Positions 2,962 through 25,340 of a stretch of 64,000 nt of DNA are shown here, piece after piece; the first letter of the stretch is position 1; the number at the start of each line of letters is the position of its first letter. The stretch lies in the NCBI GenBank assembly GCA_001599915.1, contig BCIG01000002.1, forward strand, positions 620,001 through 684,000. The letters are read 5' to 3'. The notes beneath the pieces are model-generated. The model had not been told where the DNA came from and searched no databases. It saw nothing but the letters and a program-made list of their open reading frames with translations. Origin of the DNA: Symbiotaphrina buchneri. Taxonomy: Eukaryota > Ascomycota > Symbiotaphrinales > Symbiotaphrinaceae. A program made the translations under genes and the position numbers.

Positions 2962-5900
2962 TCAGCTCAATAGTTCCTTGATATCCTCAATGCGCTGGAG
3001 CTTCCTTTCCTCATCGCTCATCATCCCCAACGAGCTTGCTCTATAAAAAGGTCAGTTCCACACTCACCGGCGGTCATGGCGCACGAGCGTTTTTGTGACG
3101 TACATGAATTTTTTCCTTTCCTGTACTTTCAACATTCTCTCCTCGACACTCTCCCTCACTATGAATCTGTACACTGCGACAGCTTCGTCCTGCCCCATCC
3201 TATGCACCCTATCAATAGCTTGGGCCTCGACAGCAAAGCTCCACCAGGGATCCATCATGAACACCCTCTTGGCATGGGTAAGATTCAACCCCACCCCTCC
3301 AGCTCTAAGAGACAGCAGCAGAACTGTTCCCTTTCTGCTTGAAGCGAACTCATTCAACACTGAAGCACGCTGCTTCTGCGCCATGGACCCGTCTAATCGC
3401 AAAAATGGGATGTGGTCTCGGGTCAAGGCAGGCTCAATCAGATCAAGAAATGAGGTGAATTGCGAGAATACCACAGATTTGATCTGCGGTTCTTCCTTTC
3501 TGAGCCGCTTGAGGTGCGCAAGAAGAGCTGCGATCTTAGCAGATGTCACCGAACCAATTCTCCGAAGGGATATCCGCGTCCGGCCCTGCTCGTCATGCAA
3601 GTCATCGTGCTTAATCACCTCGAAAATGTCCCGTTGGTTGATGGGCTCTCTGCAATTGAAACACCGGGGGACCTTTCCACTATCCTTTTGATGGTCAATA
3701 TACTCGAGCAAGCATTTTTTGCAGGCGCTGTGCCAACAGCCGGTCACGGCCTGGTCGATCATTGGTTCTTCCGAGCAGATTGGACATTCATTGTCCGACT
3801 CGTCCTGGATTTGCTGGAGAACATTGGCTCCAAACTTGTTTGCATCTTGCTCGTCTCCTTCAGCCATGAAGCGGTTAATTAGGTCTTGTAGATCCATGTC
3901 ATCTGCAAGACCGCTGGCAAGATCAGCAGCCGCCGCAGCCTCTTCTTCTTCCGCCGCGATCACTTTGTTCCGTGTAAGGGTCGGGTGGCAGCAGGACTGC
4001 CGCAACCGCAGAATCTGTGCAAAGATTGTAGTATAGGACTTCAGAAGCGTACCGGCCTCGATGTTGGCAGCAAATGTCCGCTTGGCTCTCATGAATATAT
4101 GATCGTACACCTCACGTTCCGGCTTTGACAACTCGACCTCCTCCACTGTTATGGTTCTGGGTGGCAAAGGCACCAGCGCAGCCCCTTCAGGAGTCTTCAT
4201 GTCTTTGGTCCTTCTCAAAACCAGGGGCTCCAAGACCGTCTGTACGACGTCTAAAGCGCGGATAAACTCGCCTGCCTCGAATGGAGTGGTTATGAAAGTC
4301 TTCCAGAACGAGAAATTATTCCAAGGCTCCACCCTTAAAAAGCGTACCAGACTGAAGAGATCTTCCAACCGATTGACTATGGGTGTACCGGTTAAGCACC
4401 ACCGCCGCTCGGCGTTGAGCTCATAGCACGCCTTGGCCGTTTTAGACTGCCTGTTTTTGATGTGATGTGCCTCATCAAGGATTATGCGCAAGAAGCTAAG
4501 TGAGAATAGTCCAACATGAGATACGCGATTGCCTTCCCTTGCAATAGCATTGAATTCGGATAGGACTGTGCCATAGCTGGTAATGACCACATTAGGGGCA
4601 TGGGCGGCGTTTGATTGGCAACACAGGGCTCGAAGGTCGATGTTCCGATCACCTCCGTAGTAGACCAGAGTCTTCAGCGTCCCAGGCTTCGAAGCGCGCT
4701 CTGCTTCACTCTGCCACTGTGCGAGCAAAGACATGGGCGCCACCACAAGCGTGGTAGCCGGGGCCCTTTCAAGTCCTCTAAGACGCCCAGATAGCCTTGG
4801 AAGTCCATTGAAAGAAGACAGTCCATAGGCTGTTGGTGTGTCCAAGTCAGGCTTATGCGTGTGTATCAAGCTCAGCATTTGTATAGTTTTCCCTAATCCC
4901 ATCTCTGCAGCAATTAGTACGGTTCAAGGGACCACATCAGTACATGACGGACTAACCATCGGCTAGAATCCCACCGGGGCAATTTTGTTCTTGCACAGGA
5001 AAACTCAACGACAATTCGCCAGAGTAGAAATTAACATAGAATTTGCCCTGCCCCTTCACGTCTGGAAGCATATTACCATCAGCGTCCTTCGAAGGCCAAG
5101 AGTATTCTTCCCAGAGAGGGTGCATCGAGGCAGGGCGATCCCCTCTCTGTTCCTCATTCTCTTTTCCCATCATCCAATGGAGAGCCTGCTTTTGGTAATG
5201 TCGGAGATCCATCGCAAATGTCTCAGCCGGTTCCGCTGCAGGGGTGTTGAAGTCAAAGGACTGTGCCTTTTTATAAAGGGTATCAAGCTGATCCTGCTCC
5301 AGCTCCTTTCCGTCTTCAGATTCTTCAGACTGAGGCGATGAGTTCTCCTTCTCGCCATCTCGTCCGTTTTTCCTCCTATTCTCTGCTTCGTATTGCTCGG
5401 CAACATCAGCTGCTTGCAATAGGCCTTGTCGTTTATGCCGTTCAGTTGTCTCAGTTGTTTTTGATGGATTTAAGTTGATCTCTTCAAAGAGCTTAACAAG
5501 GGCCACCTGACGCAGGCGCAAGAATTTTTCTTCGTCCGTCTCTTTGGCCTCAAAAATACCCGCGTTGCGGTTGTTATCTGAAGGTCGAAAGGAGCTCTCA
5601 GCTTGGAATGCGTCTCTTAGCAGGAAGGCGCGTAACTGGAGGTAGATCGTGTCATTTGTTCGCACGCGATCCGGAGCATACACACAGCTCCCCTCAAACC
5701 GACAAGTGCCCTGGTCAATCAGAGTGGAAACCCAACTTGCAGTCTCTTTTGGCAGTCGGCCTATTTCATCTCCTTTCGCGTTCGTGAAACGGACTACGAT
5801 ATCAGCACGTTTGCTAAGAGGGCTAGGTCGAGGGCTAGGCGCAATTTTGCTTTTACCACCCCTTGACTGTGAGGACATTGAATGCGTTTTTGATCTCTCC

Positions 5901-22325: not shown

Positions 22326-23484
22326 TCAGTATGTGGCTGCCAATCTTTGCGTTATATAGTCGAAAGAATTTATGCCCGGATACTTCTTGCCTTCCTTTTC
22401 CCAAGTGCCCGGTATAGCTTCAATGTACTTATCAAAGTTTGGGTTACAGAAATATGCAACCGAGTACCGTGCCGGATACTCGCTGGCATCCGGTTCGACG
22501 GGTGGTTCCACGACGCGATGTTTGGTGGACTTGATCGTGTCGTTAGACCAGCGTGCTAACATATCGCCGGCGTTGACCACAATTGTGTTCGGGATTGGCG
22601 TTGCGTTTACAAACTTGCCGTTTGGAGACTGCACCTGAAGCCCGCCCCGAGAGTCTTGAAATAGAAGTGTAATGGAACCTGTGAAGGGACAGAACATTAA
22701 GCAAGCTCGCGCCACGGTACAATCGTTCGAGGGCTGCTCACCATAATCGGAATGAATACCTGCTCGCACTTGACCCTTGTTTTTCTGGAAAACTGTCTTG
22801 TCGACGGCCGGATAGTGGAGCAGCCGCAGCACGTTGTCTCCGGCGTCAGTATATTGATCAAAGTATGTCTCATCAAGAGCCATGCCCACGGCAATGGCTC
22901 GCATGACTTCCATGTGCAGCTTTTTGCAGGTCTCGTGAAAGGCAGTCATGGTCCGTTTGAACGCGGCACCTTCCTCGTCAAAGCGATCTGGCCAGTTATT
23001 GGGATATTGGTCCACTCCTTCCCTTCCTATTTCCATGGACTCCTTCAAGTCTGGGTTTCCCTGCTTCACCTTCTCTACCTCTTCTTTGTCGGTGAGGAGT
23101 GACACCTTCTCCCTGCCGTGTGCGACGTACCCACGGTTGCTTTCGGGTGTTGTCCAAGCAAGCGCATCTTTCTGTTGCTGGGGCCGCTTAAAGAAACTGG
23201 CTGAAGAAGAAAAAACATCCTCGATGGTCTCGGCAGGGATGCCATGATTGGAGAGATAGATGAAGCCAGCGGTGCGGAAGCCATCAAGAACAGCTCGAGC
23301 AGTCTTTTCTCTGGCAGAAGGTCCGCTCGGGTCCAGAAACTGTCCGAAATCAATGATCTACGAGAGGTCAGCTACGAGATGCATAAGCCATGTCTCTCAG
23401 GATTGTACGTACAGGGATAATTAAATCATCTTCAGCCACTGCATTCTTCGCCATCGTGGGCGTGTCCACGACCCCATTCGCCAT
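22326..23484 (-). CDS. Thymine-7-hydroxylase-like 2-oxoglutarate/Fe(II) dioxygenase
   Basis: Exons 23413-23484, 22742-23357 and 22679-excluded then 22326-22678 give 346 residues; the second intron is 22679-22741. The N-terminal DIOX_N part (IIPIIDFGQFL, AGFIYLSNHGIP) leads to the jelly-roll core. The iron ligands are H226 and D228 (HSDYGSITLL) and H283 (STKHRVV). R300 in RYS binds 2-oxoglutarate. The segments HGREKVSLLTD, LLHYPAV, NPNFDKYIEAIPGT and the terminal QRLAATY match fungal thymine-7-hydroxylase as I remember it from Neurospora. That enzyme oxidises the thymine methyl group stepwise to 5-carboxyuracil. The divergent neighbour encodes the next enzyme, which strongly supports this over a generic isopenicillin-N-synthase-like oxygenase. 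The second intron is in frame and stop-free. Confidence 0.85.
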
Positions 23485-24182
23485 GTTTCCACTCGTCTTA
23501 CGCCGTTGGATGTAGCGTGTAATGTGTGTATGTGTGTGTTCGTGAAGGTACCACAGTCAGGGTGAAGACGAAATTGAAGAGGTTCGATGACAAGCCGTGA
23601 GAATCAACCAAAGGTTGCACAGTTATATCCCTACTAGGGTGCGTATCTTCCTCGAGCGGACCGGAGCGCATCGCGTGTTGCTTCTTATCAGTCATGGCGC
23701 CGTTGGTTCCTTATCTTGTTATCAACTCCCCTGACACACCAGTCCCCCAAAGTTCCACGGTGACTGAGCCCAAAGATGCAATGACTTCGGCTTGACAGTT
23801 TCATCGATCTCTCGGGCTCTTACTTGGGTCATGATCGTGTAACACCCCTGGCGATCAGGAGCTCCCTACCTGTGAAGGTCACTGTGAACTCAAACCACCT
23901 TGGAATTGAGCGCCGTGGATGTGACGTGATAAGAACCTTTATCGTCATTTTATCAACGAGAATTGGCTTGGCGTGCCGATAAAACAACGAAAGACCCCCA
24001 AAATAGCTCTGAACAATCTCATTTGCTCCGGTCCCTGAGCAAGGATCAACAGCGCTTTACATGCAGAACATCTAGTTACACAAAGCACCCGTGGGCTTTT
24101 GTCAGGCAAGGGCCTGGATTGCGCTTCACTTTTCTACAGCATTAGGGTCCCCATTGAGTTCGTCCACTTTACACCTCTCGAA
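23485..24182. promoter_or_regulatory. Divergent promoter of the thymine-salvage pair
   Basis: This 698 bp segment separates the two start codons and probably drives both genes. It contains several GATA-type sites, such as TTATCA and GATAAG around 23675-23730 and 23925-23985. These sites would suit nitrogen control by GATA factors, but I did not test for enrichment. Confidence 0.45.
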
Positions 24183-25340
24183 ATGGCCGTCGTCGATATC
24201 CATACCCATGTCTACCCTCCGGTGTTTATGGAGATCTTGCGATCACGCGACAAGATCCCTTATGTGCGTACATTTCCCGACTCTTCCACATCACGGCTCG
24301 TGATTTTGCCCGGTGAGGACTCTCCCGATACGCCATCAACCTCCCACGGCCGTCCCATTGGACCGGAGTACTACGATATAAGCAAGAAGATAGAGTTTAT
24401 GGATCAACATGGGATTGACGTCTCCGTTATCTCACTGGCGAATCCTTGGCTGGACTTTCTACCTTCACACGAAGCAGGGCCGGCAGCTTCCCGGTTGAAT
24501 GTCTCAATGATATCTGCTCTCGGTATCCTGGTCGTCTATTCGCGTTCGGCACTTTGCCCCTCTCCGGCCCTAGCCAGGTGATCGTGGACGAAGTACGGCG
24601 GCTTTCTGAGCTGAAATATATGCGCGGGGTGATTATAGGGACCTCTGGGCTAGGAGCTGGGCTGGACGACCCGGCACTGGATCCAATTTACTCGGCGTTG
24701 GAGGAGACGAATCAGCTGATCTTCCTCCATCCTCACTATGGGCTTCCAGCCTCGGTTTACGGTCCGCATGCCTCGGACTATGGCCATGTCTTGCCCTTGG
24801 CCCTCGGATTCCCTCTCGAGACAACGATTGCCGTGAGCCGCATGCTGCTGTCTGGTGTCTGGGACCGATACCAGAAGCTCCAGGTGCTTTTGGCCCACAG
24901 TGGGGGAACGCTTCCATTTTTGGCGGGGCGAATTGAGAGTTGTGTGGCACACGACGCACATCTGAAGAAGCTGGGCAAACTATCGCGCAGAAGGGACGTT
25001 TGGGATATACTGCGGAACAACATCTATCTAGATGCAGTCATATACTCAGAGGTTGGCCTTAAAGCGGCCATCGACGCTTCGGGCCCTGACAGGTTGATGT
25101 TTGGTGCGTATGGACGGCCAGACATAGCCGCTCTTGTTCAGCGATGTAATCCGTACCTAGGCTGACTTCTGGGCAGGCACAGATCATCCTTTCTTTCCGC
25201 CCCTCGAGGAAGAGGAGAGCGAGTGGTTGAGTGTCAAGAGCAACTGCCAGGCTATTGCGAATGCGTTTGGCGAAAACAAAGCAGCAGCAGACGCAGTCCT
25301 AGGCGGCAATGCCAAGCGCATACTTCGCCTGTCGACATGA
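24183..25340 (+). CDS. Iso-orotate (5-carboxyuracil) decarboxylase-like amidohydrolase, reading frame shifted near 24500
   Basis: The translation aligns with fungal 5-carboxyuracil decarboxylase of the ACMSD/amidohydrolase-2 family. It has metal ligands in DIHTHVYPP (residue 5 onward), then VSVISLANPWLDFL, RGVIIGTSGLG, LIFLHPHYGLP, LLAHSGGTLPFLAGRIES and, after a 73 bp intron (25104-25176), GTDHPFFPPLEEEE. The enzyme makes uracil from 5-carboxyuracil, the final step of thymine salvage. Frame 0 (24183 to about 24500) and the next frame (about 24500 to 25103) are both clearly coding, but they join only if one base is missing near 24495-24510. No GT-AG intron fits the gap. So this is either a sequence error or a recent pseudogene; the rest of the gene looks undamaged. 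Confidence 0.8.

Follow-up and report, generated by a model that had tools for sequence, protein, structure and literature searches.

Architecture of the gene pair

The analyzed window is a stretch of 64,000 nucleotides (C2:620001–684000) from a genome of 23,383,419 bases in 82 contigs, and positions without a contig name refer to it. Within the window, the interval 22326–25340 harbors two genes. A thymine-7-hydroxylase (T7H)-like gene on the minus strand (22326–23484) consists of three exons and encodes 346 amino acids, and a gene related to 5-carboxyuracil (iso-orotate) decarboxylase (IDCase) lies on the plus strand (24183–25340). The stop codon of the T7H-like gene opens the interval at 22326, and the stop codon of the decarboxylase gene closes it at 25340. 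The ATG codons of the two genes, at positions 23484 (minus strand) and 24183 (plus strand), diverge and are separated by 698 bp. The pair is thus real: its coordinates, the distance between its genes, the protein families and the divergent layout are all as described in a first-pass annotation that was made from the sequence without database searches. The enzymes and the pathway that links them are already known, and the sole surprise is the broken state of the decarboxylase partner. No mention of the pairing of T7H and IDCase genes was noticed in the titles and abstract openings that were covered by our literature search.

The T7H gene

Exon 1 of the T7H-like gene (23413–23484, minus strand) begins with the ATG at 23484 and is followed by a 55-nt intron (23358–23412, GTACGT...CGTAG). 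Exon 2 (22742–23357) contains the Pfam domain DIOX_N and, at its end, residues H226, D228, and Y229. A 63-nt intron (22679–22741, GTGAGC...TTCACAG) separates it from exon 3 (22326–22678), which provides H283, R300, S302, F306, and N308 and finishes with QRLAATY and the stop codon. Because the length of the second intron is a multiple of three and the intron is free of stop codons, the raw open reading frame (ORF) runs on through it. When this unspliced ORF is compared with T7H from Neurospora crassa (NcT7H; PDB 5c3o–5c3s), it contains an insertion of ∼20 residues between HSDYG and GSITLLF. When the spliced protein is aligned with NcT7H over 318 residues, 201 of them (63.2%) are identical, and the C-terminal tail is the same. 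With both introns removed, the three iron ligands and the QRLAATY ending that were listed in the first-pass annotation are recovered. Two differences from NcT7H are the length of the protein (the native Neurospora enzyme has 333 residues according to the available part of PMC4787775) and a C-terminal loop that is two residues longer near residue 293.

The residues that serve iron, 2-oxoglutarate (2OG), and substrate binding in NcT7H are named in the structure paper, and all 15 that were checked from its available part (PMC4787775) are kept in the alignment with the window protein. The Fe(II) ligands H226, D228, and H283 correspond to H214, D216, and H271 of NcT7H. The 12 residues given in the same source as contacts of 2-oxoglutarate or thymine (Asn87, Glu122, Arg190, Leu192, Tyr194, Tyr217, Leu223, Val273, Arg286, Ser288, Phe292, and Asn294) are likewise all conserved. 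In a search against all solved structures, the raw frame of exons 2 and 3 matched NcT7H (5c3p) with 414.1 bits, compared with 90.0 bits for the next molecule. In the reverse direction, a 234-residue fragment of NcT7H was searched against the 23.4-Mb genome and gave 40 matches, of which the window gene was the first (178.4 and 142.8 bits in two segments with 76% and 59% identity, respectively) and a gene on contig C8 was the runner-up (124.3 bits, 46% identity). The window gene and NcT7H are reciprocal best matches, with the forward search covering solved structures only and the reverse search covering the whole genome. Both the homology and the conserved residues support the prediction that the minus-strand gene encodes a thymine-7-hydroxylase, and on this point the first-pass annotation is upheld.

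T7H-related sequences are numerous in this genome (47 matches), which leaves some room for the view that the dioxygenase is a different fungal 2OG oxygenase close to T7H, for example HxnY of nicotinate breakdown, whose closest structural homologue is T7H according to the available part of PMC9304392. This identity is at odds with the reverse best match, the full set of active-site residues, and the IDCase-like neighbor, and we consider it very improbable; the difference in score between NcT7H and all other structures, together with the genome-wide reverse search, led us to reject it. The 15-residue check was also run on 20 loci (L008–L027, some of which overlap), corresponding to matches 1–20 of the 47. 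The window gene alone retained 15/15 residues, the C8 locus retained 14/15, and the others had no more than 12. The C8 paralogue therefore weakens the uniqueness of the T7H assignment. The C8 region (C8:111550–113182) contains two adjoining 2OG-oxygenase genes on opposite strands, and the one on the minus strand is the nearest T7H relative after the window gene.

The IDCase-like gene and its frame break

The plus-strand gene is divided into two pieces that lie in different frames. The 5′ piece (24183–24500) comprises 106 codons and includes the DIHTH metal ligands, the arginine in GRP, and the asparagine in ANPW. It is followed by two bases (24501–24502) at a position where the reference proteins have two codons. 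The 3′ piece comprises 254 codons, starts at 24503, and extends across a 73-nt intron (25104–25176, GTGCGT...GGGCAG). The exon before the intron (24503–25103) contains HPHYGLP and LAHSGGTLPF, and the last exon (25177–25340) extends from GTDHPFFPP to the stop codon. All three of these motifs had been used in the first-pass annotation to match the gene to IDCase, and all were found, with GTDHPFFPP lying across the intron. The lengths of the three introns of the pair (55, 63, and 73 nt) and their GT–AG ends are compatible with a filamentous fungus.

When the 3′ piece was searched against solved structures (219-residue query), five IDCase sequences scored 279.7–291.9 bits, and the next match was an ACMSD with 77.6 bits. 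The 5′ piece (110-residue query) matched the same five IDCases with 88.0–93.5 bits, and no other solved structure was matched at E values up to 0.001. The window gene is 58.8% identical to 4hjw (presumably from M. anisopliae) and 56.7% identical to C. militaris IDCase (4hk5/4lak/4lan). The catalytic and substrate-binding residues of the C. militaris enzyme, as listed in the available part of PMC6305744, are His12, His14, Arg68, Asn98, His195, Phe222, His251, Arg262, Asp323, Phe326, and Phe327; all 11 are common to both reference enzymes and the window gene, where they are spread over the two frames. These comparisons support membership of the plus-strand gene in the IDCase family. ACMSD (2wm1, 4igm) belongs to the same amidohydrolase fold family, but neither it nor resorcylate decarboxylase was accepted as the identity of the gene, as their scores did not exceed 77.6 bits versus at least 279.7 bits for the IDCases.

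At the junction between positions 24500 and 24503, the gene is a net four bases short relative to 4hjw, C. militaris IDCase, and a paralogue on contig C21 that is described below, and the pieces on either side are colinear with all three. Unlike in the two structurally characterized enzymes, the frame is broken after codon 106, and the loop before GRP is shorter. A complete single coding sequence is absent, and the gene as assembled is unable to encode the whole enzyme. The family assignment of the first-pass annotation stands; the break, which went unnoticed there, is a new finding.

One way to reconcile the two frames would be an unusual intron that removes the break and leaves a shortened decarboxylase. 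Candidate introns were defined as GT/GC–AG segments of 35–250 nt that join the frames without a stop codon, and 35 of them were found. However, a consensus donor (GT[AG]NGT or GT[AG]AG) is present in none of the 35, compared with all three of the other introns of the gene pair. The shortest candidate (24501–24577, donor GTCTCA) would also delete ∼25 residues (CSRYPGRLFAFGTLPLSGP...) that align with the solved IDCases. We therefore do not attribute the break to a hidden intron and regard this explanation as highly unlikely.

Outside the break, neither piece shows a second lesion: the frames stay open, and conservation extends to the final codon, so the lesion would be either recent or an error of the assembly. 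If it were an assembly or base-calling error, both genes would be intact and the first-pass annotation would hold as it stands. The undamaged state of the remaining sequence fits such an error, as does the fact that the four-base shortfall is seen in one assembly alone. On the other hand, a loss of four bases is not a single-base homopolymer slip. We consider an error at this site a serious possibility, although its probability is somewhat below one half. The only other gene of the window that was inspected for frame breaks encodes an SNF2 helicase, and its junction near 4923–4955 reads as an ordinary intron.

A second IDCase homologue on contig C21

The genome contains an unbroken IDCase homologue at C21:576713–577786 (L030:4693–5964), with a single frame of 423 codons and all 11 IDCase residues. 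Its identity amounts to 52.2% with the window gene, 51.9% with 4hjw, and 51.8% with C. militaris IDCase. Judged by identity, the window gene stands closer to both reference enzymes (58.8% and 56.7%). The total score against 4hjw is practically equal for the two copies and slightly higher for the C21 homologue (437.6 bits in one piece versus 295.1 + 91.3 + 47.9 = 434.3 bits for the window gene), and this score, together with its full set of residues, weakens the uniqueness of the IDCase assignment. The best matches of the two window genes are IDCase and T7H and not members of other subfamilies, as had been proposed, but the presence of an unbroken IDCase homologue elsewhere in the same genome counts in part against the first-pass annotation.

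As judged from its sequence, the C21 homologue could supply decarboxylase activity. Its surroundings differ from those of the window locus. A hydantoinase/oxoprolinase-like ORF adjoins it, its divergent neighbor is flavoprotein-like and resembles an FAD-dependent monooxygenase (with Pfam matches below the curated cut-offs), and no T7H lies beside it. With such neighbors, its substrate may be different.

If the break is real, the plus-strand gene would be a young pseudogene, and either the C21 protein would perform the decarboxylation or 5-carboxyuracil would be the end product. The frame break itself and the availability of an unbroken copy agree with this explanation. The window gene shows no other decay, however, and the gene neighborhood on C21 also argues against it. 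We judge the chances of a real break of this kind to be evenly balanced.

Proposed route from thymine to uracil

The T7H of the window, as an Fe(II)/2-oxoglutarate dioxygenase, would oxidize thymine in three rounds via the 5-hydroxymethyl- and 5-formyl- intermediates to 5-carboxyuracil. The plus-strand gene appears to descend from a 5-carboxyuracil decarboxylase that would yield uracil from this product, so that the enzymes leading from thymine to uracil would both be placed on one divergent promoter in one fungus. With the copy in the window broken after codon 106, no full-length decarboxylase would be produced from the locus as assembled. The explanation that we favor, and consider likely, is that T7H is intact and the IDCase descendant is frame-broken as assembled, with the last step falling to the C21 homologue if the break is real. 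This takeover would be superfluous if the assembly were in error at 24501.

The first-pass annotation assigned the last two steps of thymine salvage to the pair. The families and the layout agree with this proposal, but a working two-gene unit is not borne out, since the assembled decarboxylase gene lacks a continuous frame and a homologue with an intact frame and all 11 residues is encoded elsewhere. Annotation of the locus as an intact two-gene unit would be wrong for the present assembly. More tentatively, the clustered IDCase may have been broken recently while the divergent T7H remained intact, with the last step having passed to C21 or with salvage halting at 5-carboxyuracil. Thymine salvage would then have been caught in the middle of rewiring. 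Provided that the break is real, the combination of an intact T7H, a broken neighbor, and an unlinked paralogue would constitute a natural test of whether another gene can take over the processing of 5-carboxyuracil.

Bacterial and archaeal genomes were scanned for relatives of the decarboxylase, and the 30 pattern matches included one relative, from a bacterium (L046). No credible T7H was found beside it, as the only match had an E value of 0.92.

GATA motifs in the shared intergenic region

The divergent intergenic region (23485–24182, 698 bp) contains seven HGATAR motifs, which start at positions 23685, 23711, 23719, 23927, 23939, 23950, and 23977 and form two groups (23685–23724 and 23927–23982). 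The mean for 698 bp in the window is 1.68 motifs, and the intergenic region is the densest stretch. When the window was scanned in 1,267 sliding stretches of 698 bp, nine contained seven motifs, and all nine overlap the intergenic region; seven motifs were reached in one of 2000 first-order Markov resamples. The motifs are candidate AreA/NIT2 sites, which would mediate nitrogen control by GATA factors. T7H and IDCase probably shared a divergent promoter under GATA-factor (nitrogen) control and may have been co-regulated. The intergenic region at C21 contains two GATA motifs in 457 bp. The best 698-bp stretches at other loci have eight (L031), eight (L032), and seven (L033) motifs, so the promoter is unremarkable among those loci.

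Two further regions contain T7H-like genes in the vicinity of PF02133 permeases. On contig C26 (L031:4359–8684), two T7H-like 2OG-oxygenase genes are found near a permease of this family (cytosine/purine/uracil type), and the eight GATA motifs of this locus lie in a 698-bp stretch that begins at L031:7301, around the start of the permease gene. This group is possibly another cluster for nucleobase use. On contig C30 (L032:4813–9104), a T7H-like oxygenase gene is located ∼1.5–4 kb from a PF02133 permease gene.

Candidate genes for downstream uracil use

Matches to domains of uracil use are present on several contigs, and those to UPRTase and DUF1688 are in line with the favored explanation. UPRTase matches are present on C2, C18, and C20. 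DUF1688, presumably URC4, is matched on C5 in one piece with two internal stop codons, which are possibly introns. GTP_CH_N, presumably URC1, is matched on C18 and, with stop codons, on C11. In the region C18:486373–490058, a GTP_CH_N match (C18:486373) and a UPRTase match (C18:489460) are separated by ∼3 kb, and the two may be part of a URC-like uracil-catabolism cluster.
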